The notes below the pieces were generated by a model. That model was not told the DNA's origin. It saw only the letters and a list, made by a program, of their open reading frames with translations, and did no database searches. Source: a virus. Taken from it: a DNA stretch of 64,000 bases. This document shows positions 9,764-31,364 of this stretch, piece by piece (the first letter of the stretch is position 1; the number at the start of each line of letters is the position of its first letter). Position numbers and translations under genes: made by a program. The stretch spans positions 1 through 64,000 of the IMG/VR virus record IMGVR_UViG_3300015371_000002; one strand, given 5' to 3'.

Positions 9764-12700
9764 CAGACCAGCACCGTATACGTCACGGTCGCGTCCGTTG
9801 CGCGCAGCGAGTAGCCGACGACCTGAGTATTCTGCCCATTGGTCAGGTCCTCAACCGGGTATTTAATATGCAGCACATCACCGAACTCCCAGCCGAACTC
9901 CCGCCGTGGCAGAGTGATATTGTAGGTTCGCCGCTTCTGCCCCCACAGGGCTCCGTGCTCGAACGCGACCTCTGTCGCACCCACCTCGGTCAGCAATGGA
10001 CCATTCATTGGCTGAAAGTCGTTGGGGCGACGATAGGCGTTTAGGATAGTCGGGTCATACCATGTGGCGTAGCGGTCGGCAGATTGCACGTATTGCACGC
10101 GCGCGTCCGAGCCTGCCAACAAGGTGTTAATTGCGGTCATCACCGTATAATTGTGCAGATAGGAAACGCGAAACCGATAAGACGGCGGATCGAGCGTTGC
10201 CGGTAATGGGCGGCGCGTCAGACTGATGATATCAGTTTCATCATAGCTTGCGACGGGCGTCTCATCGCCGTTTAAGGCACGCAGCAAAGTCAATCTTAGG
10301 CGGCCGTCACGCGTCGGCACAAGATTGGCGCCCAATGAACTTAGGATGGCATCGATAGCCTGGATGCAGCTCCACGACTCATCGGTCCCGAAATACATTC
10401 CAGCGACATAGTTTGGGTGGGCTGTGACAGCTGTCGTGAAGCTATCGCCGTCGATCATCGATTCAGACAGTGTCATTTCCTCGAGGAGGAGATAGCGGCA
10501 GATGTCGAGTGCATTGGATACTTGGCCCGCAGTATGGAAATAGCCGATTGCATCAACGGTGATTTGCCCAACGGGAAGACTACCAAGTTGGAACAGGCCG
10601 CGTGAATTGTCGGTTCGATATTGTCCGATCGGCGCTGCGCCCCCCCATAAGTTCGTGGTATCCCCTGCATAGGAGATCCCGCCCGGACCGGAGCCGGCGG
10701 CTTCATACAAGGTGGTAATTACACCTGGTTCATCGGAATATTGGTAGATATACCCATTAGGATTCGGATCGATCAATGTTGGTGTTATGTTCTGCACCGG
10801 CGCGCTTTGCGTGCCCCCGCGCAACATAGGCTTCGGCTTGCCCTTAAGATCCGGCGTTCCGTCGGCCTGCCCCGTGCCACCGTATAGGTTGGTTGTCAGG
10901 GGTTTTTCCAACCAATATGAGGCATCGCGTAACGGCACTGATAGACCTTGATCTGTCAGCGCCCATGGCGTGGCAAGTCCGGAAAACAGCACTGCGAGCG
11001 AGGCATATGTTGGGTCGGTGAAATACTGCCGAGTGGCGTCCCAGCGCTTGCTTCCGCTCAGCAGCCTAACCGACCGCCCGTCGGAATTCTGCAAGCCGTT
11101 AAGATGGTCAAACCGCTGGTTGGGATTAGCAAGCACGACATTACCCCAAGCGGCGGATGCTGACGTGCGCGACGGCTCGAGCGTGAGCGCGGCATCGATC
11201 TGGTAGGCGTCAGATAACAACGGCGGATAAGCCACCACACCTCCCTGATCGCTCGGCGATGAGCGATAACCTAGATCAGAGGCGACGATGAACTCGGTAT
11301 TTTCTAACAAGGTCGGCGGCAAGCGAGACAACGTGCCGTGCGCGCGTGTGCCGTGGGCGTAGGTTGCCACGACCGGCACGGATCCTGGCGTGAATGTCTC
11401 CAGCTCGAAGGCGACGAAGTCAGGCTCCATACCAGCGGCGATACCCGGACGTAGTCTTACCTTCCTACGAACGTGCGGTTTGGCAATAAGCGTCCCATTG
11501 CCGATGATCTTGCAGCGGGAGCTGCCTTTGAAGGTCAGGTTGCTGACGCGCAGCGTCCCAGAACCAGCAAGGATCGCCATCTTCGGCGGAGCGGCAGTGC
11601 GTATCGGCGTCGCGATAATGGTGCCGACGCCCCTTCCAGCATAGCGGCCGTGATTAAACGGCTCCAGCACGAAAGGATCAGTAAGCAGCGCGCCACTGCC
11701 TTGTGCCGCGCCACGCACGGAATAGCGGACGCCGGGTCTGGCAATGATGTTGGCGTCGCCATCGATCTTGAGTGACGACCGCCGTAGCACGCGCGAGGGG
11801 ACGGCGGCCAATGCGCCAACCCCGCCGAAGTCGACGTGGGGTGCTGTGGTGAGTGCATTAGCGGTCAACCCGCCGCTCCCACGGATGATCGCCGTGGCTG
11901 GTTTCACCGCCCTTGCCGAGGCGTGGAAAAAACTGTCGCCTCTGATGACGGTGTTGGCGTCGACCGGTGTCGAGGCCTGGAAAACCACCGCGGTAGCCCG
12001 TAGCCTGCCAGCGCCAGGGATTTGCACCAGCACGCCTATAGCTACTCCGCTACCGAAGCTATCGTCGAACACCGGATCCCACGCATCGCCGCTCTCTGGC
12101 GGGGCGGGGATCACCGACGGGGTGAGCCAACGCTCTGATAAGCGGGTTTTCAGCACCGCATAGGGACGCCGCGCGTGGGCCGCGACCTCGTTGGCTGCCA
12201 GCGCCCGCGTCCAATAGAACACGTCCGCGGCGGGCCACGGCCACTCAATGCCAGACGTCACATCCGAGCCGAACACCGAGCGCAAGGTGAAACCGGCAAA
12301 CGCCTGGGTTGTCGTGCCGATCCAAGTCGTGCCGCCATCGATGTAGAGCGTAGCGGTGGAACCGGTGACGGTGACCGTAACGCGATGCCAGCCGGTCAGC
12401 GACGAGGCGACCAGCGGTTGGCCGGCTGAGAGAAACGCATTCTCGGCTGGCACGCGGGTGCGAAAGGTGCCCGCGGCAACCGACACGTATAGCGGCATGC
12501 GCCCGGTGTCGTCGCCTGCCAACCCGGCACCGATTGAGTTGAAGCTACCTGCCTGTGGCCCTATGCCGGAAAACCGCACCATGGCCGACAGGGTGAACGC
12601 GCTTGTGACGGTATCCTTGGGGGCCAGCGTAAGACACGGTGTGTTCGCCGGCCCTGTGGTGCCGCTGAGCGAACTGCGGGCCTGCGCGCCATTCGGACCA

Positions 12701-12891
12701 CGGGAGATGGTAATGGTGCCGCGGCGGGCGTTCCTACGGGCCGGAAGCGCGGTGTCCGTCAGTCGGCTGTCTTCGAACAGCAGCACTGTGCGCAGGAAGT
12801 TGCCGAGCGGGTGGCTGAGGTCAACGGAAATCGGACCGTGCGGTTTGCCGGGGCTCTGCCTTGCGGCCCGTTCAAACGGCGGCTGCGCCAT
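9763..12891 (-). CDS. large tail hub/tip protein with LamG-like domain and Gly repeats, 1042 aa
   Basis: Three parts are visible. Residues about 90-250 look like a concanavalin/LamG lectin domain (TSAFTLSAMVRFSGIG, GWHRVTVTVTGSTATLYIDGG). Residues about 285-480 contain degenerate copies of the 20-residue repeat found in the adhesins (VLVQIPGAGRLRATAVV, AILAGSGTLRVSNL). From about 490 to the end lies a tail hub-like region (SYLHNYTVM, EFGWEFGDVLHIKYPVEDL) resembling the central tail-tip proteins of siphoviruses. It would form the tail tip and bind glycans. It overlaps the next gene by one base. Confidence 0.7.
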   Translation of the reverse strand: MAQPPFERAARQSPGKPHGPISVDLSHPLGNFLRTVLLFEDSRLTDTALPARRNARRGTITISRGPNGAQARSSLSGTTGPANTPCLTLAPKDTVTSAFTLSAMVRFSGIGPQAGSFNSIGAGLAGDDTGRMPLYVSVAAGTFRTRVPAENAFLSAGQPLVASSLTGWHRVTVTVTGSTATLYIDGGTTWIGTTTQAFAGFTLRSVFGSDVTSGIEWPWPAADVFYWTRALAANEVAAHARRPYAVLKTRLSERWLTPSVIPAPPESGDAWDPVFDDSFGSGVAIGVLVQIPGAGRLRATAVVFQASTPVDANTVIRGDSFFHASARAVKPATAIIRGSGGLTANALTTAPHVDFGGVGALAAVPSRVLRRSSLKIDGDANIIARPGVRYSVRGAAQGSGALLTDPFVLEPFNHGRYAGRGVGTIIATPIRTAAPPKMAILAGSGTLRVSNLTFKGSSRCKIIGNGTLIAKPHVRRKVRLRPGIAAGMEPDFVAFELETFTPGSVPVVATYAHGTRAHGTLSRLPPTLLENTEFIVASDLGYRSSPSDQGGVVAYPPLLSDAYQIDAALTLEPSRTSASAAWGNVVLANPNQRFDHLNGLQNSDGRSVRLLSGSKRWDATRQYFTDPTYASLAVLFSGLATPWALTDQGLSVPLRDASYWLEKPLTTNLYGGTGQADGTPDLKGKPKPMLRGGTQSAPVQNITPTLIDPNPNGYIYQYSDEPGVITTLYEAAGSGPGGISYAGDTTNLWGGAAPIGQYRTDNSRGLFQLGSLPVGQITVDAIGYFHTAGQVSNALDICRYLLLEEMTLSESMIDGDSFTTAVTAHPNYVAGMYFGTDESWSCIQAIDAILSSLGANLVPTRDGRLRLTLLRALNGDETPVASYDETDIISLTRRPLPATLDPPSYRFRVSYLHNYTVMTAINTLLAGSDARVQYVQSADRYATWYDPTILNAYRRPNDFQPMNGPLLTEVGATEVAFEHGALWGQKRRTYNITLPRREFGWEFGDVLHIKYPVEDLTNGQNTQVVGYSLRATDATVTYTVLV

Positions 12892-12893
12892 GG

Positions 12894-13334
12894 CTACACA
12901 GCGGTTTCGGTGTAGGAGGCGATACGCACGAGGCTAGCGGCTGGGATCGACACGCCGAGGCGATTGCGGGCCAACGCCTTGAAGTGGCCTGGCGGTAGAA
13001 CTAGCTGGGCGCCACCGGCGCGCGGAATGATCGATGTTCCGGTGCGCACCGCGATCGTCAGATCAGCGTCACGCGATGGAATGAACCCCGCAGCACCATC
13101 CTCGAACGACACCCCGCCATCGATCGAGCGCAACACCCAGATATCCAGCATAGCGTTGGCGCCAGGGGAGAACGCCGCCCCGGCAACAAACTCGACATCG
13201 CAGTAGAGCGATCCACCGGTATTAATGATGTCGTCGCCTGGCGCGCTGATCCCGGTGTTGGCTAAGCCTGCCAACACGCTGGCATTGAGCAGCACAACCG
13301 GCAGTTCATAGGCGCCCCAGCGAACGATCGTCAT
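12894..13334 (-). CDS. tail-tip beta-sandwich protein, 146 aa
   Basis: The whole protein is homologous to the first 150 residues of the gene immediately upstream (13331-18973). Shared features include DVEFVAGAAFSPGA versus DLEFIAGGTCSPGV, then WVLRSIDGGVSFEDG versus WILRSLDGGLTFEDG, and LPPGHFK versus LPPGTFK. The strand pattern suggests an all-beta structural or carbohydrate-binding domain. ATGA overlap with the upstream gene implies translational coupling. It may be the stand-alone form of the domain that anchors the giant protein to the tail. Confidence 0.7.
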   Translation of the reverse strand: MTIVRWGAYELPVVLLNASVLAGLANTGISAPGDDIINTGGSLYCDVEFVAGAAFSPGANAMLDIWVLRSIDGGVSFEDGAAGFIPSRDADLTIAVRTGTSIIPRAGGAQLVLPPGHFKALARNRLGVSIPAASLVRIASYTETAV

Positions 13335-16300
13335 GCCAGTGTTCCCGTCAGGATAACCACGGTCTCCGAAGCGACGGAGATCGAGGCGAGGCTGGCCTGG
13401 GTGCCAGTCACTGGGGTCGGCGAGACCGGCCCACCGGGTGATGACTTGCCGATTTCCCAGCGTGATATGGTGCCTGTCGGCACACCGCCCGCGCTCACCG
13501 AGAGGTTGACGGTGCGTGACGCCGACAGATCGTAGTTAAGCAGCATGATGGCGAACGTCGTCGCGGTCGGCTTTACCGCCAGGATCACCAAGTTGGCGAT
13601 AGAACTCGAGACAGTGTATTCCGCGCCAAACAGCGACTGGCCGGCCTTGCCTAGGAAATACCCAGCAGCCGTTACCGCTGTAAGGCTACTGCCCTGCTGA
13701 ACACTGCCAATACAGCCCTCGTCCACATATCTGACGATGTTTTGCCAGTTGCAGAACTCCATGCCGGTGCCGTTCTTGAACACGCCATATGTGTAGGCTG
13801 CGGCGTAGATCGCTCCGTGGTATTGCCCGGTCTCGGCGAGTGTATTGCTATGGTTATCGTTCTCTCCAAGATTATATTCGATGACGCCGAACGGCTTGTT
13901 GGCCAATGGTGTGCCAGATAGTGCTGAGCGCTGGACGCTGTTGTCCGTGGTGTTAACGCCGAATTGCCCGTAAAGCGTGTTCAACGGTGTGGTTAGATTA
14001 TTGTTTGGGCCGCCGCCGTGATAGGCCATCCAGATCACGCCATTGCACCGATTGGCCATATTGGACACGTTGGCGAACGTCGAATTGGCATAAACCGCCG
14101 GATCCCACTGCGGTGGTCCCCAGACACGATAGGCTGAATTGACGTTGTGCAGCGCGTCAGCAATAGCGGTAAAGTATGGCGTCATCGTCGCCTGTGACAC
14201 GCCATCGATATTCCACATATTTCCGGCGCTGAAGTCCATAATGTCGGAGTAGCCGTTGTTCGCCAGATAGCTGGCAAAATTCGCCGCCCGCGACGCCACA
14301 ACAGAAGGTGAGTCCGTCGGTGTCAGAGAGCCGGCGACGCCCATGATGACGCGCACGCCGGTCTGACAGAACGAGCGGTAGTTACCCAACAGCGCATTGA
14401 TGGTTCCCATATTGCCGTTGGCGTAGTCGGTGTCGAGGTTCCAGTCCGTGTTGAACCATAGGCACGCGGGTTTCAGCCACGTGTTGGCGGTGTTGCGGAA
14501 TGTTGCGTTGCTGAAGAACTGGCCGCCATAGATGCTGCAAGAAAAGCCCCACATCGTCTTGAGCAGGGTTTTCCCAGTAGGCGCCGAGAAGTTCACAGTG
14601 GTGTTGCTTGAGGTCGTCGCCTGAATGGTGAACGCTCTGACCATCGGTGACGCGGACGCGCCTGACTGGGTCGCGGTGATGTTGATCGGGTAATTGCCGG
14701 CGGCCAGCGTGGTGGCCAATTGCAGTGAAGAACCGACAAAGCGGAAGTGCGTCGTATCGTTGACCGAGAGCGTGCCTGAGAAGGTGCCGCCGGTTGCTTG
14801 GACAGCGACATTGCCAATCGGTGTGCCAGCACCGGATCCCGCCACCACGGTGGTGCCAGAGAGCGTAATGCCGGTCAGCGTCATCGCTCCGGCGGGGACA
14901 ATGTTGAACGTGTTTGACGTCGCTTGGATGGCAGTATTTGCTGCAAGCCGAACGCTGACCGATGACGTTCCACCACTGCCGCCGCCACCTTGGCTCGGTA
15001 GAGCGACGCCGACGCGAAGGTTCTGGCTATCGTCCCTTTGCCAGACGGACACTGTGTAAATCGTGCACGGATTTTCGTCGTTCGTGCCAATCATCAACTT
15101 GAAGCGAAGAGCGTCCATCGGGGACCATGGATCGACATCTCGCGTTTCGGCCCATCCGCGGCTAACGTCGTATAGGTTCCAGGTGTAGGTATTCCCGAGC
15201 TGCACACCATCGATGTAATTCTTGATGTAGCCTTGCGTGCTTCCTGTTGCAGGCACCCAGAGCCACGAATATTTATGCCGCTGCCTCAGGTCGGAGGGCG
15301 GGGTCATGCCGCCGGGCTGGCCATTATCCAGCGATGTCCACATATGGCCGGGTTGGTCCCACAGGATGATGCCGGCGTTGATCGTGCCGCCTTGGCTGGG
15401 AATTTGGTCCAAGAATTCCGCCGCATCATATTCGATGCCGATTCCCTCCGGCAGAAAACCGGGGGTGTCGTTAAACGCGTCTTCGATATTATTGGCCCAC
15501 CATGCGGGCCAGCCGCTCCCCGTCTGCGACGAGGAGTTGTTCTGGAACGCCATATCGATTTCAAAATAGCCGCCGCCGCCGAATGCGCTGCCATGGAAAT
15601 TCGTTCCATTCGGGCTGCAAGTGCGCACATGGTCGTTCGCGCCATAGCCAGCCCCCTGGGGACCAGGGTCAGTCATGGATCCGTTGGCGTTTTGAAATAC
15701 GCTGTAGCCGGGCTGCACGAACCAATTGCTGTTCAGCGTTGGCAGCGGCCCGAGGGTGCGCATGTTGTAGCCTTGCGCAGCCGCGAGTGGAGGCGCTCCT
15801 GCGGAAGTTGTCGTCATCGCCGGATGGGTAAAACTGAACGCCGTCGTCGAGACCGACGCCCCGGCCGGCAGCGCTACCCATGCACCAGCGCCATCGCGGT
15901 ATTGCAGTGCTGGAGGTGTGGCCTGTCCCTGCAGCGTGCCACTCACGCCAAATGTTTGGCCCTCGATGACCTGCGGGATGTTGGCGATCGTAATGGCGGG
16001 ATTGACTGGGCGCGGGTCGTGCACGTCGATCCAGCCGGAGCCGTTCCATTGCCACCAACCAGGATTATCGCCGAGCGTGTTAGGGGTGGATTCCTGGCGA
16101 TACAGGAAGTGTGAGGCGTAGTAGATAGCGACGACGTTACTGGACGAACCGTCTGGCGAGCCGTTGCGGTTCAATGTGCGGCTCGAAGTTATAGCCCATT
16201 GGTCAAGAACGATGCCGCCTACCTGGCCTGGCGTCAGTGATGCATAGATGATCGTTCCTGCGGTGGTGACATAGGTGCCGCTGGTCGTCTCGGTCGGTGC

Positions 16301-18973
16301 CGCTGGGATCGGATTAGATGTATCGGTCCAGTCGAACATTCCAGGCCCTGTCCAGACATACCACGCCGGACTGCCGAGCGAATTGGAACCGATCGTGCGC
16401 TCGTAGATCTGATGATTGTGGTAGTAGAGCAGATCGACGCCCCAGCTTTCGGTATCCAGGGTGCCATCGAAGGTCATCTGGAAAACTGGATTGTCAGGTT
16501 GCGTGCCCTGGACGAGCGCAAAGACATGCACCGTGCTCGATGCCGTGCCTGGGGTTACCGAGGCATTGATCGTCGGCCCGATGCTTGAGACTTGTGTGCC
16601 TTCGGGTGATTCCACGGTGCCGAACGGATTTGCCACTGCGACCCACGTCGCGCCGTTCCAAGTCGACCAACCAGGCGTGCCAAAGGCGTTTCCCGCGGTC
16701 TGCTGGATATATACCGTATGATTATGATAGTAGGCCTGCATGACGTTTGCCGTGCCGGCATCGGCGACGCCATTTCGCACCATCTGCGCGCTGGAGTTGA
16801 TGGTGAACTGGTCAAGCGAGGCGCCTGCAGGAGAGCCAGGGGTCTGCGATGCAAATATCGTCGTTCCAGGCCCAGTAATCGTCAGGCCCTCTGGGCTTTC
16901 ACTCAAGACGATGCGCGGGTCGCCTGGAACTGTTACCCAAGTGCTGCCTGACCAAACCGCCCAGGAGTTGGTCGATGTCTGCCAATAAACGGCATGATCG
17001 TGATAGAGAAGCAGGACGATATTGGATCCGTCGGTCTGCCCCGCGTGATTGACCTGGAAGCCGTTGGGCGGATTGTTGATCAGCGTATAGGCAACGCCAG
17101 CCGCGTCATAAATCGCCCCAGTTGCCGTGGTCAGGGTGGTGTCCTGCGCACTTTCGGTGGGAATAATCGATCCCTGTGGGGATATGACAAACAGATGCAC
17201 CGACGCGGTCAGCGAGAAGTTCAGCGTGGCGATGTTGGTCAACGTCGCAACCGGAGTCTCCGCGGTCGTCGCATCGGTGGTCAGATCATAATGCACGACC
17301 CGCGCCATAGATCGGATGAAACTGACCGTAATGGTGGCGCCGCTGCCGAGTATCGGCCGCTGCTCGTTCCAGATGAACAGGAAAAATGTGCCGCCTGAAT
17401 TCTGATACAGACGATGGTGACCGCCGGTCCATGGCGTCGCATTGGACCCTGGCGCCTGCAGGCCCGTGATCGTGTAGTCTAACTTCGATGGCCGGAAGGT
17501 GCGTTTCTTGGATCCGCTATCTCCGGTCAGCGCATACATCGCACGGATGGTGCGCGCAGGCAGCCGCGGTGTGTCGCTGCCGCTATTGGGAAACAGGCCG
17601 ACGCGCACAAACGGACTGTCACCACTCTGGCCGATATCGAACAGAGATTTGTAGAACCACGCCTCGTAGCCGAGCCGATGAAAGTTCAATATGCCGAGCG
17701 CGGCATAGAGCGCGCCAAAGCTATCGTCGGTGGCATGGCTTGGGCTGTCAGTATTCCCCGAGGTCGGATGCCACTCACCAAGGATTAGTGGCTTGCCGAA
17801 GTAGACACCGTGGCCCAGCGCTACGTCATCAGCATTGCCACCGCGGCTGGAACTGTCGTCCGCCTCTGGATCAAGCGTTGGGAAGAACCGCACCGAGGCG
17901 AGCGAGGATGATGCCAGCAGATCAGACTTTTGCTGCGTGGTGAGATAGCTGGCGATTGCCGTCGAGGTCTCAGGAGGCAGCGTATTGTATGTATACGACG
18001 GACTGGCGACGGTGACAGGGTTCGTCCTATCTCGGGTCGCTGCAACGCCGTTATACAGCGTTTGCTGCACCGTGACGCAGTTCGCCGCGGAGACGCTGCC
18101 GTCGTTTGGCGTGTTCAAACCTTCGGCCCAGGCCATCCAGCCCGTGCCGTCGGCCGATGAAACTGCCATTGCTGCGAGCGATGTCGCATCGGCGGCGACT
18201 GCACCGCGCAGTAAAGAAACGGAAAACTTACTGCCGGTGGAGGCAGCGACGGTCGGGCACCAGGACAGCTGATTTGAGCCGCCGCCGGTGTCGCGGCCAG
18301 CAACGTGGTATTCTCGAATGTTGCAGCGCATGCCGCTATTGGCGGTCAGGTAGGTAAGCGCCTGGATCACCGAGTCTGTGGTGTAGTTGCTGACCCCGGC
18401 TCCCCACGGATTGGTCCCGGCAACTGACTGCGAATAGGTGACGACGCCGAAGCGCTCCATCATGTCGGCAATGCGCAGCGCGGTGGTGCCTGTGGCATCA
18501 CCGGCCAAAACCGCGCTATCGGCCCCAGAGCCCTCGGAATAGACGGCAAAGCGCACCGAGGAACCGGACGGAATGGCGACGCCCATTTGATTGCGTAGGG
18601 CAACCTTGAATGTCCCCGGCGGCAGCATGACGCCTGGATATCCCGCGTGCGGGGTTATGCTCGTGCCGGTATTGATTTCGATGGTCGCATCCGGACCGCG
18701 CGCGGGAGCGACCGTGGAGGAACCGTCTTCGAACGTCAGGCCGCCGTCGAGTGAACGGAGGATCCATACCTCAAGGAACGCATCAACGCCGGGGGAACAT
18801 GTCCCACCGGCGATAAACTCCAAGTCGGCCCAGACCGCGCCTTGCGAGTTGGCGAACGGCGCCGAGACCGCCAACACATCGCCAGATGACGATGCGAGGC
18901 CGGTTAATTCAGTCGATAGTGCGGTAACTGGTGCGGTTAAATAGCTGCCGCTGCCGGCCCAACCATATTCCAA
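13331..18973 (-). CDS. giant tail protein with two GH-A-like barrels and a GH16-like domain, 1880 aa
   Basis: Domain order: beta-sandwich 1-150, shared with the next gene; a TIM-barrel-like region 165-600 with AWAEGLNTPND at 281-291 and PLILGEWH at 395-402; four Trp-rich repeats 610-990 (YYHNHTVY...PGWSTWNGATW); a GH16-like domain 1060-1325 with IEYDAAEF (Glu1181, Asp1183, Glu1186); a cadherin/Ig-like domain 1340-1455; and a second barrel 1460-1810 with FSAGNMWN and FGVIEYN (Glu1699). In clan GH-A the acid/base Glu follows Asn (NE); here Thr288 and Met1586 stand there, while the nucleophile-like Glu400 and Glu1699 remain. GH16 catalytic residues look intact. Start TTG 18973 has GAAAGGG upstream. 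It is probably a receptor-binding or depolymerising tail-tip protein. Confidence 0.75.
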   Translation of the reverse strand: MEYGWAGSGSYLTAPVTALSTELTGLASSSGDVLAVSAPFANSQGAVWADLEFIAGGTCSPGVDAFLEVWILRSLDGGLTFEDGSSTVAPARGPDATIEINTGTSITPHAGYPGVMLPPGTFKVALRNQMGVAIPSGSSVRFAVYSEGSGADSAVLAGDATGTTALRIADMMERFGVVTYSQSVAGTNPWGAGVSNYTTDSVIQALTYLTANSGMRCNIREYHVAGRDTGGGSNQLSWCPTVAASTGSKFSVSLLRGAVAADATSLAAMAVSSADGTGWMAWAEGLNTPNDGSVSAANCVTVQQTLYNGVAATRDRTNPVTVASPSYTYNTLPPETSTAIASYLTTQQKSDLLASSSLASVRFFPTLDPEADDSSSRGGNADDVALGHGVYFGKPLILGEWHPTSGNTDSPSHATDDSFGALYAALGILNFHRLGYEAWFYKSLFDIGQSGDSPFVRVGLFPNSGSDTPRLPARTIRAMYALTGDSGSKKRTFRPSKLDYTITGLQAPGSNATPWTGGHHRLYQNSGGTFFLFIWNEQRPILGSGATITVSFIRSMARVVHYDLTTDATTAETPVATLTNIATLNFSLTASVHLFVISPQGSIIPTESAQDTTLTTATGAIYDAAGVAYTLINNPPNGFQVNHAGQTDGSNIVLLLYHDHAVYWQTSTNSWAVWSGSTWVTVPGDPRIVLSESPEGLTITGPGTTIFASQTPGSPAGASLDQFTINSSAQMVRNGVADAGTANVMQAYYHNHTVYIQQTAGNAFGTPGWSTWNGATWVAVANPFGTVESPEGTQVSSIGPTINASVTPGTASSTVHVFALVQGTQPDNPVFQMTFDGTLDTESWGVDLLYYHNHQIYERTIGSNSLGSPAWYVWTGPGMFDWTDTSNPIPAAPTETTSGTYVTTAGTIIYASLTPGQVGGIVLDQWAITSSRTLNRNGSPDGSSSNVVAIYYASHFLYRQESTPNTLGDNPGWWQWNGSGWIDVHDPRPVNPAITIANIPQVIEGQTFGVSGTLQGQATPPALQYRDGAGAWVALPAGASVSTTAFSFTHPAMTTTSAGAPPLAAAQGYNMRTLGPLPTLNSNWFVQPGYSVFQNANGSMTDPGPQGAGYGANDHVRTCSPNGTNFHGSAFGGGGYFEIDMAFQNNSSSQTGSGWPAWWANNIEDAFNDTPGFLPEGIGIEYDAAEFLDQIPSQGGTINAGIILWDQPGHMWTSLDNGQPGGMTPPSDLRQRHKYSWLWVPATGSTQGYIKNYIDGVQLGNTYTWNLYDVSRGWAETRDVDPWSPMDALRFKLMIGTNDENPCTIYTVSVWQRDDSQNLRVGVALPSQGGGGSGGTSSVSVRLAANTAIQATSNTFNIVPAGAMTLTGITLSGTTVVAGSGAGTPIGNVAVQATGGTFSGTLSVNDTTHFRFVGSSLQLATTLAAGNYPINITATQSGASASPMVRAFTIQATTSSNTTVNFSAPTGKTLLKTMWGFSCSIYGGQFFSNATFRNTANTWLKPACLWFNTDWNLDTDYANGNMGTINALLGNYRSFCQTGVRVIMGVAGSLTPTDSPSVVASRAANFASYLANNGYSDIMDFSAGNMWNIDGVSQATMTPYFTAIADALHNVNSAYRVWGPPQWDPAVYANSTFANVSNMANRCNGVIWMAYHGGGPNNNLTTPLNTLYGQFGVNTTDNSVQRSALSGTPLANKPFGVIEYNLGENDNHSNTLAETGQYHGAIYAAAYTYGVFKNGTGMEFCNWQNIVRYVDEGCIGSVQQGSSLTAVTAAGYFLGKAGQSLFGAEYTVSSSIANLVILAVKPTATTFAIMLLNYDLSASRTVNLSVSAGGVPTGTISRWEIGKSSPGGPVSPTPVTGTQASLASISVASETVVILTGTLA

Positions 18974-19111
18974 TGGTGTGCCCTTTCATTATTGATCTCA
19001 ATCGATTGGTCGGGGAGGCCGCTATGCTTCGCTACGGAAGCAGCCGCACGTCACTGAATTGTTGTGCAACGCATAACAATTATGCTAGAGATCCTCCAAC
19101 AGGAGGGAACA
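18974..19111. other. intergenic region between divergent genes
   Basis: This region separates the giant tail gene (minus) from the lipoprotein gene (plus). It holds the ribosome-binding sites of both and a candidate plus-strand promoter. No minus-strand promoter is obvious. Confidence 0.5.
19059..19086 (+). promoter_or_regulatory. candidate promoter for the lipoprotein gene
   Basis: TTGTTG at 19059-19064, a 16-base spacer and TATGCT at 19081-19086 resemble a sigma70-type promoter, 25 bases upstream of the ATG. A partial dyad (TTGTT...AACAA) overlaps it. The match is modest. Confidence 0.35.
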
Positions 19112-19756
19112 ATGCGTAAGTTCATCATTCTAGCTACAACGGCGCTAACATTGGGCGCGCTAGCTGGGTGCGTCTCAGCGCCACCACCCGTGCCAGAGGT
19201 TTACGTGCCACATGCGGACGCCAATATGCGACCCATCGCTGTCCAGAAACTGGTGCTCCAGCTTCCGCTCGGCCACCAGAATGGGGTGATTGCCCTCGGT
19301 CTGTTGTGTATCCCACACGCGACGCTGAACGCACATGCGTTTAACTCGACGAGTGAGGTGGCGCTCGAAATCATCCGCGAGGAATTCGCTATGAACGGCT
19401 ACCCGCTGATCAATCCGCCGGGCGATCTGTTCGCCACGGCTGACGATAACCCGACCGCCATCCGTATCGCAGGCCGCGTCATTGATGTGCATGACAACGC
19501 GTGCTTCCCGATGGGTGGGTTCGGAGATCTGACCAACGGATCAGCCGACTCCGCTGTCGCGATTGAGTGGCAGGTGTTCGACCCTGCCAGCAGGACCGTC
19601 GTCCTAAGGACGACAACTACGGGTGTATCAAGGATTAGTGGTGCATCGCAGCCGTTGAACGTCGCTGATACTGCGGCCGTGCGCCATGCGATCCGATTGT
19701 TTATCGCGAGCCACGAATTCCAAGCGCTCGTGCATTCGGCGGGGCCGGTTGGCTGA
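19112..19756 (+). CDS. lipoprotein, 214 aa, plus-strand insertion in the late operon
   Basis: ATG 19112 follows AGGAGGG. Residues 1-20 are a lipoprotein signal peptide (MRKFIILATTALTLGALAGC) with lipobox LAGC, so Cys20 would be lipidated and the protein held in a membrane. The mature domain (about 190 residues) has an alternating alpha/beta pattern with IRIAGRVIDVHDNACF and VAIEWQVFDPASRTVVLRT, resembling rhizobial lipoproteins of unknown function. It is transcribed against the surrounding late genes and lies beside a nuclease gene. This is typical of a moron or lysogenic-conversion gene, which is inference. Confidence 0.8.
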   Translation: MRKFIILATTALTLGALAGCVSAPPPVPEVYVPHADANMRPIAVQKLVLQLPLGHQNGVIALGLLCIPHATLNAHAFNSTSEVALEIIREEFAMNGYPLINPPGDLFATADDNPTAIRIAGRVIDVHDNACFPMGGFGDLTNGSADSAVAIEWQVFDPASRTVVLRTTTTGVSRISGASQPLNVADTAAVRHAIRLFIASHEFQALVHSAGPVG

Positions 19757-19794
19757 AAGCTTGCTAGCCGCCAGATGTCAGCCTAGAACGAAAC

Positions 19795-19829
19795 GGGGAC
19801 GGGCAGCGCTCTAACGCCGATCCGTCCCC
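19795..19829 (+). terminator. possible hairpin after the lipoprotein gene
   Basis: GGGGACGG at 19795-19802 pairs perfectly with CCGTCCCC at 19822-19829 around a 19-base loop that can form an inner GGC/GCC stem. No T-run follows, so it may be a weak or factor-assisted terminator, or a structured leader for the nuclease gene. Confidence 0.35.
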
Positions 19830-19840
19830 TGACCACGAGG

Positions 19841-19854
19841 GATGAGGAGACATC
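19841..19854 (+). promoter_or_regulatory. leader GATGAGGAGACATC of the nuclease gene
   Basis: This 14-mer contains the ribosome-binding site GAGGAG and stands 5 bases before ATG 19860. The same 14-mer occurs on the minus strand at 49443-49456 before the HNH-like gene, and both genes begin ATGGCTGA. Confidence 0.7.
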
Positions 19855-19859
19855 GCCAC

Positions 19860-21575
19860 ATGGCTGACGACAGCCTTATGGCTAGCAGCATACTTCCGCA
19901 ACTCATCACCGATGCGGAGCCAACGCAGCCTTCGCTGTTCTGCGATGATTCAGTTCGGCCAGTGCGAACCTGTTCGGTCGGGGACTGCAACAGGAAGCAC
20001 GCTGCTCGCGGCTACTGCCTAAAACACTATATCCGAAATCAGCGCGGTCAGCCGCTAGATGTGTCAACCGGAGAGTTGCGGCGGCGCCCTCCGAAGACCT
20101 GCCAGTTCCCAAACTGTGGCCGCAAATCGAAAACCAGGAACCTTTGCGTAAAACACTACCAGAGATTCTGGAAGGGCGCAGATATGATTGCGCCGGACCG
20201 TAAGGTATGGACGATTGAAGACCTAAAAGCTCATGCGGCAGGATTGGGCGGAGAGTGTCTCTCGGATAGCTACATCTCCAGAAATCACCAATATTTATGG
20301 CGCTGCTCATACGGGCATAACTGGACTGCTGCATGGGGCAACGTCAAAGGCACCAGTAATAGAGCAGGGACATGGTGCCTCGAGTGCAGGGGCCCCTTGA
20401 GAGGCGAGGTTATATGTAGAGCAACCATGGAAGCGCTGTTCAGAGCTCCCTTCCCAAAGTCCAGGCCTGACTTCTTGCGGCGCAGTAAGCGCAGCATTCT
20501 AGAGTTGGATGGATACAACCAGAGCCTAGGCATCGCCTTTGAATACCAAGGCATTCAACATTTCGAACCACAGAGACATCTAGGAGAAAGGGTTACTGTC
20601 TCTACGCAGGAAAAGGATGACGAAAAGCGCAGGCGCTGTTGGGAGAATGGCGTGTCGCTGGTTATCGTTGTGGCGCCTATCGGCTTCCCAGATAAGATGA
20701 AAATCATAAAGCAGGTCGAGTTTGCAGTTTCGTGCGCTGGGTTGAAGCCTATTCGCGGGTGGAAGAGCCGATTGGCACAGGTGCCTAGTATTGACTTGCT
20801 TGGGCAAGAGAAGCCTGTCACGGCTGAGATGTTAGCGCTAGCGCACAAGAATGGCGGAGAACTGGTTTCTACTACCTATCGGAGGGCACGCGATAACTTG
20901 ACATGGAGATGTGCTAGCGGGCACGTCTTTTCACTGCCGGTTGGCATCATCAAGTATGGTGAATGGTGCGGTAAATGCGCAAAATTAAGAAAGCGCGTTG
21001 GGTCCCTTGAAGAAGCACAAGCCTTCGCGGCCTCTAGGGGTGGGAGGCTTGTATCGACGGAATATCTCGGCAACAAGAAGCCGATGAATTGGGAATGCCT
21101 AGAAGGGCATCCGATTCGTGCAACTTTTTGGAGCGTTAAGACACGCGGTAGCTGGTGCGGTCAATGTTTTATCCTGTCCCAACGAGACGCTAGGTTTATG
21201 AGGGCTAAGGAGTTCGCAGAGAGCCAAGGCGGCGTATGTCTATCTTTAACCTTTTTCGACAAAAAGCAGACTGTTCTAAGGTTTCAGTGCGCCAATGGCC
21301 ATCAGTGGGAGCGAGGATATAACAGCTTTTTTTCTTCATCTTTTGCTCGGCGATCCACGGCATGGTGTCCGGACTGCCGCAAGCGGCGCATATTCTCTAG
21401 CGAAACGCGCGCAAGGATGTCCGACTCTGCGAAAAGGCGCATCTCGCGAGGAGACAATCCACTGATCTCTCAACTCAAGCAGCAAGGCGGTCTGGCATTG
21501 CCGAGCCAGCCGCTAACTGGCCGCGCAGGCCGGCTACCTCATTCTGGAGATTCTGGATGGCCGCCTCCAAAGTAG
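19860..21575 (+). CDS. zinc-finger homing-nuclease-like protein, 571 aa
   Basis: Two short C-C-C-H fingers lie near residues 37-57 and 82-102 (CNRKHAARGYCLKHY, CGRKSKTRNLCVKHY). Four zinc-ribbon repeats follow the pattern GG..L...Y...L.W.C..GH.W...WC..C, one before and three after a nuclease-like core near residues 205-260 (LELDGY, IAFEYQGIQHF, DDEKRRRCWENG). The core resembles VSR/PD-(D/E)XK-type homing endonucleases. A NUMOD3-like motif (FSSETRARMSDSAKRR) lies near the end. The last 34 codons run antisense into the 3-prime end of the tape-measure gene (21475-21575), so the original stop may have been lost on insertion. It is probably a mobile gene in the late operon. Confidence 0.75.
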   Translation: MADDSLMASSILPQLITDAEPTQPSLFCDDSVRPVRTCSVGDCNRKHAARGYCLKHYIRNQRGQPLDVSTGELRRRPPKTCQFPNCGRKSKTRNLCVKHYQRFWKGADMIAPDRKVWTIEDLKAHAAGLGGECLSDSYISRNHQYLWRCSYGHNWTAAWGNVKGTSNRAGTWCLECRGPLRGEVICRATMEALFRAPFPKSRPDFLRRSKRSILELDGYNQSLGIAFEYQGIQHFEPQRHLGERVTVSTQEKDDEKRRRCWENGVSLVIVVAPIGFPDKMKIIKQVEFAVSCAGLKPIRGWKSRLAQVPSIDLLGQEKPVTAEMLALAHKNGGELVSTTYRRARDNLTWRCASGHVFSLPVGIIKYGEWCGKCAKLRKRVGSLEEAQAFAASRGGRLVSTEYLGNKKPMNWECLEGHPIRATFWSVKTRGSWCGQCFILSQRDARFMRAKEFAESQGGVCLSLTFFDKKQTVLRFQCANGHQWERGYNSFFSSSFARRSTAWCPDCRKRRIFSSETRARMSDSAKRRISRGDNPLISQLKQQGGLALPSQPLTGRAGRLPHSGDSGWPPPK

Positions 21576-24500
21576 CGGTTTGTGTTCTAGTTTCGACTAC
21601 GTAAATACTGGCTGTTAACATATCTACAGGAACCTCGGCAACTGAGGCCAATATATCCGTAATTTGCTGAAAAAGTGTAGCATACCCTAGGCCGCTACCG
21701 TAGGTTGTGCGCGCCGCAGACAAGTAGGCATCCGTGTATGACGGCAGCTTCGCAAAAGAGTTACTGTCGCCCGCCATTGCCGCACCAGCGACGGCCCCGA
21801 ATTGCCGCGATGCTTCGAGAAGTTGCTGGTTAGGAGCGAGCGGGGATTGTCCGCCGAACTTTAACCCGCGCACGTAATCCGCCAGCGATGTCACTAACCC
21901 CGTCGCGGTCTGCTTCGCTTGCTCCATCGCTTGCTGTTGCTGCTGGATGATTTGGTCATTCGCGGCCGTCTGTATTTTGAGACGCTCTGCCCCGAGCGTG
22001 GTCTCCAACCGCGCCGACAGGTCGGCATAGTAAGCTTGGGTTTGATATTGGTCCGCCAGCTGCTTTCTCTGGGCGTTGGCCTGCTGATCGAAGGCAGCGA
22101 GATTGGCTGCCGTTATCTCTGCTGGCGTTGTTGCCTGAGCGGCCGCGAGGCGCGCGTTTAGATCACCCCGCAATACATCGGCCTGCGCTGCGGCCTCTGC
22201 CAATAGCCGTTGCTGTTCGGCAGCTTGCTGTTGCTGCTGGAGTATCGCGGCGTCCGCATCTTTGATTATCACCAACCTCTCTGCGGCCAACGCGCGGTCG
22301 AGGCCGACGATCTGATCGGCATAGAACTGCGATGTCTTGATCGCGTCGCCATACGTTTGGGTAAGGTTATCTGTGAGTTGTTTACGCTCAGCATTCGACT
22401 GAAGATCGAAGGCTTGCAGATTAGCTGCCGCAACCTGCGCGGAGTTACCGGATAGCGCAGCGGCTGCGGTGGCAAAACGCGATGCATAGCCCTGCTGGGT
22501 CACAGCGAATGCGGCGTTGGCCTGCTCGGTAACCTTGGCGATCTGCGCGTCGCGCTTGTCGGTCAGTTCCTGCTCGGCGAAGCCTAAATCGTGGGCCGTC
22601 GCAATCGCGGGATTGAACGCCGCTGAGATCTGATTGATGGCCTGTTGCAGAGAGCCGATGTTCTCGCCGTATTGCCGCATGCTCGGCAGCGTGCGCTCCA
22701 TGAACGTGCGCACCTTTTCCACAACCGGCGCAAGCTCGGCGAATGACGAGAAGGTGCGATCGAGCGCACGGTTCAGCACGTCCGTCTCTTCGGCGCCATA
22801 ACCTGTGGTCTGTGCGCCAAAGCGCAATCTCGAGAATGCGTCGGTGACTGAGGCGCCCGCTAGACCCTGGGGATTCTTGGCCTGGCCGAAGAAACCGAGG
22901 CCACCGGCAGCGCCGGCGGGTGGTGGTGATGATATGCCGCTAACCCGCACGCCAAGATTGCCGAGGTTCTGGTTGAAGGTTGAAACCTCGTTGGCGACCA
23001 TCTGGTAGTTTGACGGCGTGATCTGATTGCCGGAGAGACCGGGATACGCCTCCAGAAAGCCGTTGTTACCGAGACCCACGAAGGTCGCAGAATATGGGCT
23101 GGGTGGCTTAGGCCCGAGTGCGCCGCCTAGCAGCCCGCCTGCAATGGCACCGATAATTGTGCCGATGACCGGAACCACCGATCCGGCCGCCGCACCGGCG
23201 AGCGCGCCGCCAGCCAGGCCACCGGCCGCGCCAAGTCCAGCGCCGATCATCGGGCCGGGGCCTGTCTTACCGAGCGAGCTTTGCAGCAGGCCGCCAGCAA
23301 GACTGCCGAGGCCGAAGCCGAGACCGAGGCCCGTAGCCGCTCCGCCTATGGTCAGCGGAATGGAGCCACCCGCCGCGGTATAGGCTCCAGCCGTCGCTAC
23401 GCCCGGCGCACCACCTATGCCGAAACCAGAAGCCGCAAGCGCCGAATTGGTGGCAGCGCCGGACACCGAGCCAAACAACGGCGTGGCGAGAAAATTGGCT
23501 GCGGCGCCGCCTGATCCAAGAAAGCCGGTGCCGGAGAATATGTTGCCGAGGCCGCCGCCACCGCCGAACAGACTGTAACCCTGCGAGGCCAAACCGCCGA
23601 TCTGCAATAAGCCGCCGAAGCCACTGCTACCTGTGCCGCCTTCCGCTATCCCGGTGCCGCCACCGAACACTGAGCCGAGCACTCCGCCAAGCACGGGTAG
23701 TGATTGGCCACCAATGCCTCCGAACAGCGAATTGATGATCGGGTTGATGACCGCAAGCCGGAGGAACTGCTGGATAATCGCCGACACAACGCTTTTCATC
23801 ACGTTGCCGAAGTTGACGGCACTCGCGCTGCCTTGGACAAAGGCCTCGGTGATGGCATTGCCGATTGTATCGAAGGCGGAGAGGAACGAATTGGCGACGG
23901 TATCTACGTCTCGCGTCTGGTTCCGCAGGGCCTGAGTTGATTGTGCCAGCGCGTCGCGATTAGCCACTATTGCCGCGCGCTCTTCCTCGGATCTGTGGGC
24001 GTATTGGTTCATCACATCGATTTCGTCTTTACGATGCTGAATGGCCAATGCGCGTTGGTCGTTGTTTTCCCCAAGCGTCTGTGATTCGAGTTGGATGAGG
24101 CCGATCTGATCGCGGATTTGCGACGCTTCCTTCGTCGCATTAAGCTTTTCCTGGCCCGACGCAGCCTCAAGGATTTTCTTCGTGCGTTCATCCTCGGCTG
24201 CAGCGACATCATGCGTTGATGTGGCCAGAGTATCCATCACCTGCTTGTGCGCTTCGGCCTTTGCGGTGGCCTTAGCAGCTTCGACAGCACCATTCTCCCA
24301 CGATGCAGCAACTGCATTATTTGCGGCAATCGTCTGATCTAGAATTGCATTCTGATCTTTAAACGCCGAGTTCTGCTTCTCGGTAAGGGCGGCGACTTGC
24401 TCCTGCACTTGCGCATCGGTGGCGCCACGACCGGCTTCGCGTGCCCGCGCTGCCGCTATATAGATCTGCGCCAGTTCCTTGTTGGCCTGGCCGACGATGC

Positions 24501-27024
24501 CAGCAACCTTGGCTTGATCCTGGAGGGCCTGCGTCTCCTTCCGTAGGACATTCTCGGCGTTGGCGACCGCGTCCTTCTGGACCGTGATCGCATCGGTCAG
24601 GCGCTTTTCTTCTGTTACGTTTTTATCGTCACGCGCCTTCTGACGTGCCGCAGTCAGGTCATCCAGAATAAGCGTGAGCCGCTTAACTTCGTCGGCTTGC
24701 AGCTTTATATCTTTAGCGGCCTCGATGCCCCGCATGGCAGCGGCTTCATCCTGCCCGCCGCCATAGATGCTCGCTGCAGCGCTGCGACGATCGGCCGGGG
24801 CAGTCGCGCCCAACCCGCCACCCGTCTCCCCGCCAGAAAACTGTTGTCCATGGCTTTCGACGTAGGCCGTCTGCTTGGCGAGCTTAATCAACCAATCGGG
24901 CCAGCCGAATATCTGGCCGATGAATTCGATCCCGCCCACCACATCGGATGGCAGCTTGCTGATATCGGCGGAGCCGATGGCGGACGCTCGGGCGGCTTGC
25001 GCGCTTGGGCTGGTAGCACCGCCATAGATGTTGGAAATCTCCGACGCGCCGCGCTGTCCGCCGCCATAGAGTTGGTTGATGTAGTTCAGGCCAGCGGCGA
25101 GATTGCCGCCCGCCGTTGAGGTCACGGCGTCCCTGGAGTAGCCCAATCCGCCATAGGTCCCCGGCATCAACTGCATGAGGCCGACGGCCTGTCCCTGCCC
25201 CGGGACGTTTGGACCGAGCAGTGGGCTTCCGCCCTGCGTGAACAGCGACGGAAATTGCGCCTGTAGCCGATATTGCAGCGCCGTGGGGTTGATGTTGCTG
25301 ACGCTGATCCCACCCCCCGGCGTCATTTGTAGCGTCGGATTAACCTGCCCGAACTCACCGACTTCGCCGATGCCGAGGGATTGCTTAACATTTGGCGACG
25401 GCTTGGCGAGATAATCGCGGAAATCGCGCAGGGCGTTGATCGCCTTGGCGGCAAAGCCAATCACCGCCGCCGCCGCGTCGGTGAAGGCTTCTCCCATCAC
25501 CTTCGAGAACGACCTGCCGTCCTCGCCCACCGTGCTGAGCGCTTCGGATAACTGATGCAGGGCGTTCTGCAGCGGCGTCATTTGCTTGGGGGCTTCGCTG
25601 CTGGATGCCTTCAGTGCATCGACTGCCAGCTTGGCCGCCTCGGCGAACTTGCCGACCCTGACCAGTTCATCGACCTGCAGCCGCAGCGCGACCGTTACCG
25701 TCTGTAGCGGCTTTTCCCCCTCAGACAGCGTCTTTAGTGCCGCCGCCGGGTTGGTCATGGCCTGTGCCAACAGCTTGCTCGCGGCTGGAATGTCGGTGCC
25801 CATGACCTTGGCCAGATCGACCGCCGTCTTTGTCAGATCAGCGAGGTCCTGCTGCGTGCCGGTGAACGCCCGGGTGCTGCCGATCGTCTGCGCCGCCTCA
25901 CTGGCCTCTTTGAACGACGCCGTGGTTGCCCGCGCTACCTGGCGGGCAGACTTTTCGACGTCCTTCGCCATGGTCTCGAAGTCAGCGCGCGACGCCGATA
26001 GCTCGGCGCGCAATTCCCCCAGCCTGCGGTTGGTCGACTCTGCATAGATAGCCATCGCGCCCAGTGCAGCGCCGACCGCGACGATACTGGTGACCGCAAG
26101 CTTCCCAGGAGAGACTAGGTTGGCAAGATAGGTCCCCACGTCACGAAATCCGACGTTCATCAATTGCGCTACCTGGTAGACTTGGCCGCCTTGCTGAACC
26201 AGGGTTTGCCAAATTGGCATGCCGCTGCCGATGCCTTGGACAAGATCAATCCACTGCAGCGACATAATTCGCAGGCCTTGTGAGACCTGGCGGTTCCTAC
26301 TGTCGAGAACGGTCATTACCCGATCATGGACCTCGGCCGCCTGGGTAGCGGCAACGAAATTTAGTCTTGCCTTCTCCTGGGCGGCCGTGACTTCATTCGT
26401 GCTGAGGGCGCCGACCTTCTGTGCTTTGGCTATCTCGTTTAGCGTATTCTCATATTGTTTCGATAGCGCGAATACTGGATTGAATTTTGCCCGTAACGCA
26501 TCGAGCGAGTTGCCATATGCCTGGATATCAGCCGCGCGAGCCTTGTAATCCTCGTCCGATCCTGGGAGTTTTATGCCCAAGGTCTGATTCAGCGCTGCTT
26601 GAGCGGAACTCTTGAGAGACTGCGCAAGTTCGTCGTGGCGCTTTCTTAATTCATCAACTCGCGATATGGCGAGAGGCAGCAGTGATGCATACTTGTTTAG
26701 GTCCGCGCCTCCCTCTGCTATCCTCGTATTCAGCCGTGAGAGATTGTTTTCCGCGACACGTAACTGTGCACCGAGTGGATCGATGGCCCGCTGCAGGACA
26801 TTAAAGCCCCTGGCCGACGCAGTAGCAGAAGCGCCCACCTTTTGGAAGCCTGCGTCAACCGCATCGGTTGCGGCCTTAACCTGCGCTCCCATATCGGTTG
26901 CCGCCGTGCCGACGTTATCCAGCGATACACTGGCCTGATCAGCGGGCGCAGTTACCCGATCGACGAACTCGCCGACGAATTGATACGTTTCGGTGTATGT
27001 GCCACTTTGGAATGTGCCGGACAT
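21475..27024 (-). CDS. tape measure protein, 1849 aa
   Basis: Length, position and composition identify the tape measure: long Ala/Gln/Lys-rich helical stretches at 40-260 and 770-1060, a TMP-type segment near residues 245-440 (QWIDLVQGIGSGMPIWQTLVQQGG), and Gly/Ala-rich hydrophobic stretches at about 1230-1460. Residues near 615-670 carry a lytic-transglycosylase-like GLMQLMPGT. The usual ESG is replaced upstream by TQGGS, and an AYVESHGQQF motif comes about 100 residues later. ATG 27024 is preferred; TTG 27045 is the alternative. A 9-codon frame (27026-27055) bridges the previous stop and this ATG. The 3-prime end overlaps the opposing nuclease gene by 101 bases. Confidence 0.92.
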   Translation of the reverse strand: MSGTFQSGTYTETYQFVGEFVDRVTAPADQASVSLDNVGTAATDMGAQVKAATDAVDAGFQKVGASATASARGFNVLQRAIDPLGAQLRVAENNLSRLNTRIAEGGADLNKYASLLPLAISRVDELRKRHDELAQSLKSSAQAALNQTLGIKLPGSDEDYKARAADIQAYGNSLDALRAKFNPVFALSKQYENTLNEIAKAQKVGALSTNEVTAAQEKARLNFVAATQAAEVHDRVMTVLDSRNRQVSQGLRIMSLQWIDLVQGIGSGMPIWQTLVQQGGQVYQVAQLMNVGFRDVGTYLANLVSPGKLAVTSIVAVGAALGAMAIYAESTNRRLGELRAELSASRADFETMAKDVEKSARQVARATTASFKEASEAAQTIGSTRAFTGTQQDLADLTKTAVDLAKVMGTDIPAASKLLAQAMTNPAAALKTLSEGEKPLQTVTVALRLQVDELVRVGKFAEAAKLAVDALKASSSEAPKQMTPLQNALHQLSEALSTVGEDGRSFSKVMGEAFTDAAAAVIGFAAKAINALRDFRDYLAKPSPNVKQSLGIGEVGEFGQVNPTLQMTPGGGISVSNINPTALQYRLQAQFPSLFTQGGSPLLGPNVPGQGQAVGLMQLMPGTYGGLGYSRDAVTSTAGGNLAAGLNYINQLYGGGQRGASEISNIYGGATSPSAQAARASAIGSADISKLPSDVVGGIEFIGQIFGWPDWLIKLAKQTAYVESHGQQFSGGETGGGLGATAPADRRSAAASIYGGGQDEAAAMRGIEAAKDIKLQADEVKRLTLILDDLTAARQKARDDKNVTEEKRLTDAITVQKDAVANAENVLRKETQALQDQAKVAGIVGQANKELAQIYIAAARAREAGRGATDAQVQEQVAALTEKQNSAFKDQNAILDQTIAANNAVAASWENGAVEAAKATAKAEAHKQVMDTLATSTHDVAAAEDERTKKILEAASGQEKLNATKEASQIRDQIGLIQLESQTLGENNDQRALAIQHRKDEIDVMNQYAHRSEEERAAIVANRDALAQSTQALRNQTRDVDTVANSFLSAFDTIGNAITEAFVQGSASAVNFGNVMKSVVSAIIQQFLRLAVINPIINSLFGGIGGQSLPVLGGVLGSVFGGGTGIAEGGTGSSGFGGLLQIGGLASQGYSLFGGGGGLGNIFSGTGFLGSGGAAANFLATPLFGSVSGAATNSALAASGFGIGGAPGVATAGAYTAAGGSIPLTIGGAATGLGLGFGLGSLAGGLLQSSLGKTGPGPMIGAGLGAAGGLAGGALAGAAAGSVVPVIGTIIGAIAGGLLGGALGPKPPSPYSATFVGLGNNGFLEAYPGLSGNQITPSNYQMVANEVSTFNQNLGNLGVRVSGISSPPPAGAAGGLGFFGQAKNPQGLAGASVTDAFSRLRFGAQTTGYGAEETDVLNRALDRTFSSFAELAPVVEKVRTFMERTLPSMRQYGENIGSLQQAINQISAAFNPAIATAHDLGFAEQELTDKRDAQIAKVTEQANAAFAVTQQGYASRFATAAAALSGNSAQVAAANLQAFDLQSNAERKQLTDNLTQTYGDAIKTSQFYADQIVGLDRALAAERLVIIKDADAAILQQQQQAAEQQRLLAEAAAQADVLRGDLNARLAAAQATTPAEITAANLAAFDQQANAQRKQLADQYQTQAYYADLSARLETTLGAERLKIQTAANDQIIQQQQQAMEQAKQTATGLVTSLADYVRGLKFGGQSPLAPNQQLLEASRQFGAVAGAAMAGDSNSFAKLPSYTDAYLSAARTTYGSGLGYATLFQQITDILASVAEVPVDMLTASIYVVETRTQTATLEAAIQNLQNEVAGLRGQLAAGSAMPDRLAA

Positions 27025-27025
27025 C

Positions 27026-27055
27026 TTAGGTCGCCAGGGGATCAATGTTCTGCAT
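27026..27055 (-). CDS. possible 9-codon leader peptide before the tape measure
   Basis: ATG 27055 shares a base with the upstream TGA stop and has AAGGGGG before it. The frame MQNIDPLAT ends at TAA 27026-27028, one base before ATG 27024. Its role could be translational coupling. It is far too short to be sure. Confidence 0.25.
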   Translation of the reverse strand: MQNIDPLAT

Positions 27056-31319: not shown

Positions 31320-31364
31320 GTGGGTGACTCCAATCAAAGATAAGATTAGTGCGTAGAAAACGCG

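Follow-up and report, generated by a model that had tools for sequence, protein, structure and literature searches.

The late region of an uncultured soil phage probably acquired a free-standing homing-type endonuclease gene at the 3′ end of its tape-measure gene through a single exchange resembling gene conversion, which also brought in a new lipoprotein body; we put the probability of this reading at roughly 0.7. The locus is real and well delimited, and it is ordinary in kind, being a broadly expected nuclease-associated replacement of an allele. It nevertheless provides a clean before-and-after view of such a replacement for a group of uncultured phages, in which the two breakpoints can be placed and the flanking genes are intact, and it shows a small lipoprotein slot between tail genes that takes unrelated lipoproteins. 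The least expected part of the locus is the incoming lipoprotein, which resembles part of a host protease.

The stretch of DNA that was analysed (64,000 nucleotides, hereafter the window) comes from a virus contig of 124,250 bases. Its minus-strand late region runs from the tape-measure gene (TMP; 21475-27045; PF06791, E 3.5e-22), whose C-terminus is intact and conserved, to a giant tail gene encoding 1880 amino acids (13331-18973), and two plus-strand genes lie between them, as a sequence-only reading of this DNA had recognized. The first, P0002, encodes a lipoprotein of 214 residues (19112-19756), is divergent from the giant tail gene and contains an LAGC lipobox with its Cys codon at 19169-19171. 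The second, P0003, is a nuclease frame of 577 codons (19842-21575). Both open reading frames are real, and the arrangement is not a product of chance, because the nuclease has matches among PHROG nuclease families (E 1e-30), the lipoprotein aligns with bacterial lipoproteins over its whole length (E 4e-29) and the nuclease is missing from three syntenic relatives. The G+C content is 59.4% for the lipoprotein gene, 53.0% for the nuclease gene and 59.6% for the genome. A strong G+C-rich RNA hairpin without a T-run occupies the gap between the two genes (19795-19829, plus strand; z -2.65 for a 131-nt stretch) and could dampen expression of the nuclease.

Scans of viral contigs, using the TMP, the nuclease, the tail gene and two lipoproteins as queries, identified four distinct phages. 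One of these is the phage of the window itself, also represented by contig 3300015372_000014, which is 99.9% identical to the window and carries both the lipoprotein and the nuclease; the 577-codon nuclease frame is intact and identical in the two contigs. The other three are diverged relatives (L003/L017, L018 and L019) with the same gene order as the window, in which the neighbouring genes are 63-98% identical to those of the window, the TMP 42-87% (best-matching stretch) and the tail gene 62-76%, the N-terminal part of the latter reaching about 90% in the comparison of loci. None of these three relatives, all of which have an intact TMP, carries the nuclease. The outcome that would have pointed to an ancient fixed arrangement, with both genes in every relative, is thus not what is seen, and the nuclease-free alleles in all three relatives support an insertion between the TMP and the giant tail gene. 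The expected empty site was not borne out: the slot without the nuclease is not vacant in any relative. In all three it contains a different lipoprotein of 122 residues, in the same position and orientation as in the window and at least 63% identical among the relatives. The stop codon of this gene overlaps that of the TMP by 4 nt, as determined base by base in L003 and in agreement with the coordinates of L018 and L019. Gene content among the four syntenic phages therefore changes at the lipoprotein slot, its neighbours keeping their order. In L003 the giant tail gene (10768-16407 of that locus) is split into frames of 1317 and 555 residues with similarity over the full length, reflecting either a frameshift or an assembly error.

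Comparison with the nuclease-free relatives delimits the exchanged segment. On the left, the window and L003 align through the lipoprotein leader, its dyad, the ribosome-binding site and about 12 codons of the signal peptide, after which identity falls from 7-11 to 2-4 matches per 12 bases; homology to this relative fades within the signal peptide, which places the left breakpoint approximately at 19148-19159. On the right, homology with the relatives spans the TMP coding sequence and ends at the TMP stop codon (21474-21475). Beyond the signal peptide, the mature P0002 and the mature 122-residue protein are unrelated and show no similarity, ruling out that one is a diverged copy of the other. 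Because the relatives have this unrelated lipoprotein in the same slot and orientation, behind the same leader and with a stop codon overlapping that of the TMP, one segment of about 2.3 kb (about 19150-21474) stands where the relatives have about 350 bp and appears to have replaced the body of the old lipoprotein. The site that received the nuclease was thus already occupied by a lipoprotein gene, because all three nuclease-free relatives possess the slot, with the same promoter leader. On this comparison the lipoprotein slot predates the nuclease, and it is the P0002 body that came in with or near it.

The annotation of P0002 also needs revision. The lipoprotein gene previously reported is present, but its start moves from the GTG at 19064, where the frame opens, to the likely start codon ATG 19112, located downstream of AGGAGGG (19101-19107), a sequence conserved in the relatives bar one or two bases in L018 and L019. 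Further upstream lies a dyad with 11-bp arms (AATTGTTGTGC-AAC-GCATAACAATT; 19057-19081), which is intact in L017/L003 and partly kept in L018 and L019, and is possibly an operator or promoter element. It occurs as a single copy across the 124-kb contig, which rules out a repeated operator, and a scan for sigma-70 promoters gave no match.

The nuclease probably starts at ATG 19860, which follows GAGGAGA and is a better start than the opening of the frame. It begins with two zinc-finger-like units of the form C-x4-5-C...C-x2-H (19968-20165; residues 43-108; phrog_5351), followed by a first zinc ribbon (20208-20390; residues 123-183), a catalytic core with the pattern E...ELDGY-x8-AFEYQGIQH...D..K and a predicted restriction/VSR-type fold (20406-20741; residues 189-300) and three further zinc ribbons (20823-21377; about residues 328-512). 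Homing and HNH endonuclease families are among its PHROG matches, which comprise 559 (E 9.8e-31), 5351, 681 and 9084 ('homing endonuclease'), and no Pfam family scored above the cut-off. Relatives of the protein were found on plasmids, on viral contigs and in genomes of bacteria and archaea; the family core has invariant E, E, D-G, F-E, G-x-Q-H and K positions, accompanied on one or both sides by a variable number of zinc ribbons. Two viral contigs (L036 and L037) each encode a pair of related ribbon nucleases whose modules have been shuffled between the two copies; within the 124-kb contig only one relative of this nuclease was found. A structural model of the core built from 28 sequences (pLDDT 87) matches, by Foldseek, phage homing endonucleases and giant-virus nucleases with the restriction fold. 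The zinc ribbons of the earlier description are upheld by these comparisons, and its label 'VSR-like' is reasonable though not proven, because the VSR endonuclease 1vsr is among the best PDB matches of the core model but at a non-significant level (rank 4, E 0.53, probability 0.51). Considered together, the sequence matches and the predicted fold assign the nuclease to a widespread tandem-zinc-ribbon family of restriction/VSR fold that includes phage homing endonucleases. Databases name this family only loosely, and its members occur in phages, plasmids, bacteria, archaea and giant viruses.

Its members in giant viruses, plasmids and bacteria share the core and have ribbon modules that vary in number and order, but the window protein differs from the zinc-ribbon homologues examined in possessing two N-terminal zinc fingers and a C-terminal tail. 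It also resembles, and may belong to, the EDxHD/VSR-like homing endonucleases such as I-Bth0305I (PMC3943268), in view of its conserved E...D...QH...D pattern and predicted restriction-like core. It showed, however, no true match in a sequence-profile search of PDB chains, including no similarity to a solved EDxHD/VSR-like member.

The C-terminus of the nuclease bears the imprint of the right breakpoint. As originally described, the frame runs 101 bases antisense into the 3′ end of the TMP (21475-21575, plus strand), a figure that is exact and corresponds to the last 33 residues and the stop codon. The window protein extends 65 residues beyond the last ribbon Cys, 32 of them unique (21378-21473, plus strand) and 33 antisense to the TMP. 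Among 17 homologues with a closed frame and a terminal ribbon, by comparison, the last Cys is followed by 2-12 residues in 16 and by 49 in one. The suspicion that the final residues are unique is thus supported, and they are read-through sequence, because the homologues end earlier and the corresponding frame in a nuclease-free relative contains stops. Lacking a stop codon of its own ahead of the junction, the frame continues for 33 codons into the TMP, which is itself undamaged. Loss of an original nuclease stop is a plausible further step on this evidence, but only plausible, because the 32 residues between the last ribbon and the TMP could be a genuine C-terminal module; they resemble a NUMOD3 helix by eye and are absent from the homologues.

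These observations allow a mechanism to be proposed. Two stretches conserved in all relatives, one comprising the lipoprotein leader and the beginning of the signal peptide and the other the 3′ end of the TMP, could have served as the recombination arms that anchored the exchange. During a mixed infection, the nuclease would cut a nuclease-free allele near the junction of the TMP and lipoprotein stop codons; resection and repair from the nuclease-bearing genome would then copy the nuclease along with the lipoprotein allele linked to it. By removing the conserved stop junction, the insertion would protect the new allele from its own nuclease, and the incoming lipoprotein would be expressed from the old leader. 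As with free-standing homing endonucleases in general, a nuclease domain from a family with homing members is present in one lineage and absent at the same site in close relatives, with intact flanks. Free-standing homing endonucleases of phage T4 convert flanking markers (PMC2988022), and the present locus recalls the Seg and Mob systems of that phage, with their co-conversion and marker exclusion, in that a stand-alone nuclease sits beside an essential phage gene, is absent from relatives and is accompanied by replacement of the flanking allele. It differs from them in having a restriction/VSR-type catalytic core and tandem zinc ribbons, rather than a GIY-YIG or HNH nuclease, and its activity and homing are here putative. 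Nuclease genes at the boundaries of exchange have been proposed more widely, and the HEG boundaries and islands described by Barth et al. (2023; PMC10448857) likewise feature a nuclease gene that borders an exchanged segment in the vicinity of a tape-measure gene. In HEG islands, however, an essential module of more than 10 kb lies between two nucleases, whereas one nuclease and one accessory gene of about 0.6 kb are present here; the 124-kb contig showed no essential gene flanked on both sides by homing endonuclease genes.

An alternative scenario is that two independent events produced the segment, homologous recombination having swapped the lipoprotein body and the nuclease having been inserted later, or earlier, between it and the TMP without moving the lipoprotein. 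Phage accessory lipoproteins are generally exchanged without nucleases, and the difference in G+C content between the two genes, together with the lack of linkage of nuclease relatives elsewhere to lipoproteins of either kind, would fit separate origins. Nevertheless, no phage with just one of the two changes was found in the viral-contig scans, and a single event is the simpler account of the segment; two events are accordingly considered unlikely. In a single lineage, two events would leave the same picture as one, and repeated homing is not seen because only one independent nuclease-bearing lineage is known (the window and the 99.9% identical contig). The nuclease may have mobilized the lipoprotein as cargo, as first proposed, but the genes differ in base composition, P0002 was seen nowhere else in the phage and viral sets and the loci of nuclease relatives lack it. 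It has also to be considered whether the nuclease has been domesticated by the phage, for instance to degrade host DNA or exclude rivals, and is not a selfish homing gene. The intact 577-codon frame shared by the two contigs, and the occurrence of family members in bacterial and archaeal genomes, would be compatible with such a role, but its absence from all three close relatives, its atypical G+C content and a multi-ribbon DNA-binding architecture typical of long-site nucleases make domestication very improbable. We favour the single exchange outlined above, in which the lipoprotein would be cargo co-converted with a free-standing homing nuclease.

The origin of P0002 probably lies outside the known phage repertoire. 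Searches of Pfam, PHROGs, NCBIfam, phages and plasmids yielded nothing convincing, no phage protein being similar at E 0.1, and a genome scan with exact peptide patterns gave no match. By contrast with these sets, a six-frame search of alphaproteobacterial genomes (the class of a Rhodospirillales genome) matched P0002 in 21 of 385, the best match covering residues 1-212 at E 3.9e-29. Within one order, 16 matches reached E 1e-6 or better in 82 genomes, whereas 274 genomes of the class of Janthinobacterium gave none. The matching frames mostly encode lipoproteins of 430-590 residues with trypsin motifs in their C-terminal part; the closest homologue is 32% identical and contains a Trypsin_2 domain (E 9.9e-28). 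All of P0002, from the lipobox to the last helix, aligns with the N-terminal domain of these alphaproteobacterial trypsin-like lipoproteins, including two further conserved Cys residues, but the phage protein ends after that domain and lacks the Trypsin_2 domain with its catalytic motifs. It thus corresponds to the lipid-anchored N-terminal domain with the protease missing. Among the bacterial homologues, L075 likewise stands alone. This distribution suggests a bacterial, probably alphaproteobacterial, source of the gene, which is not an assignment of the host: the 122-residue lipoprotein and the giant tail protein found no match in Alphaproteobacteria. The link between a phage lipoprotein and an unnamed domain of alphaproteobacterial envelope proteases speaks for a bacterial origin and opens its function to experiment. 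A fold model of P0002 predicted from one sequence had a pLDDT of 40 and was set aside.

Most likely, P0002 acts in the host envelope, and a function there such as superinfection exclusion is favoured, with decoy of a host protease as the main alternative. According to the former, tentatively held reading, the lipid-anchored protein would block a phage receptor, its alleles being rapidly exchanged, in a role like that of T5 Llp or T1 Cor. Llp, a lipoprotein whose gene adjoins the receptor-binding gene, blocks FhuA (PMC9586334), and P0002 is likewise a small lipoprotein beside a tail gene, with its own conserved leader and an orientation opposite to the late operon, in a slot that relatives fill with an unrelated lipoprotein. 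It differs from Llp and Cor in that it shares no sequence similarity with any phage protein and in that its gene lies within the tail operon, on the opposite strand. Moreover, L018 and L019 have the tail-gene type of the window (75-76% identity) yet carry the 122-residue lipoprotein; since the lipoprotein type does not go with the tail-gene type, a direct pairing with the receptor is weakened. Alternatively, P0002 could act as a decoy or dominant-negative partner of a trypsin-like envelope lipoprotein protease of the host, of which it copies only the N-terminal domain. The end-to-end similarity, with lipobox and additional Cys residues retained, and the protease motifs found in most homologous frames and missing from the phage protein are what such a decoy would be expected to show. 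Set against this are the modest identity of the closest homologue and the existence of at least one stand-alone bacterial version, such that a free-standing domain is not phage-specific, and we consider a decoy unlikely. The fuller proposal that P0002 is a protease-less decoy or dominant-negative regulator of a host protease, or of its partner, whose allele was spread by the homing nuclease at the expense of an older lipoprotein, is quite improbable.

Further features of the window deserve mention. The ends of the TMP are conserved between relatives, but in L003 the middle part, with the SLT-like stretch at residues 612-663, has diverged or is absent. Another plus-strand gene within a minus-strand region of the window (40097-41326) encodes 409 residues with a weak match to a phage glycosyltransferase family (phrog_2170, E 4e-6). 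Finally, a minus-strand gene of 431 codons (30042-31337) is similar to a portion of the giant tail gene region in loci that hold it (42-46% identity over 270-310 residues), which suggests a domain common to the 431-residue protein and the giant tail protein.
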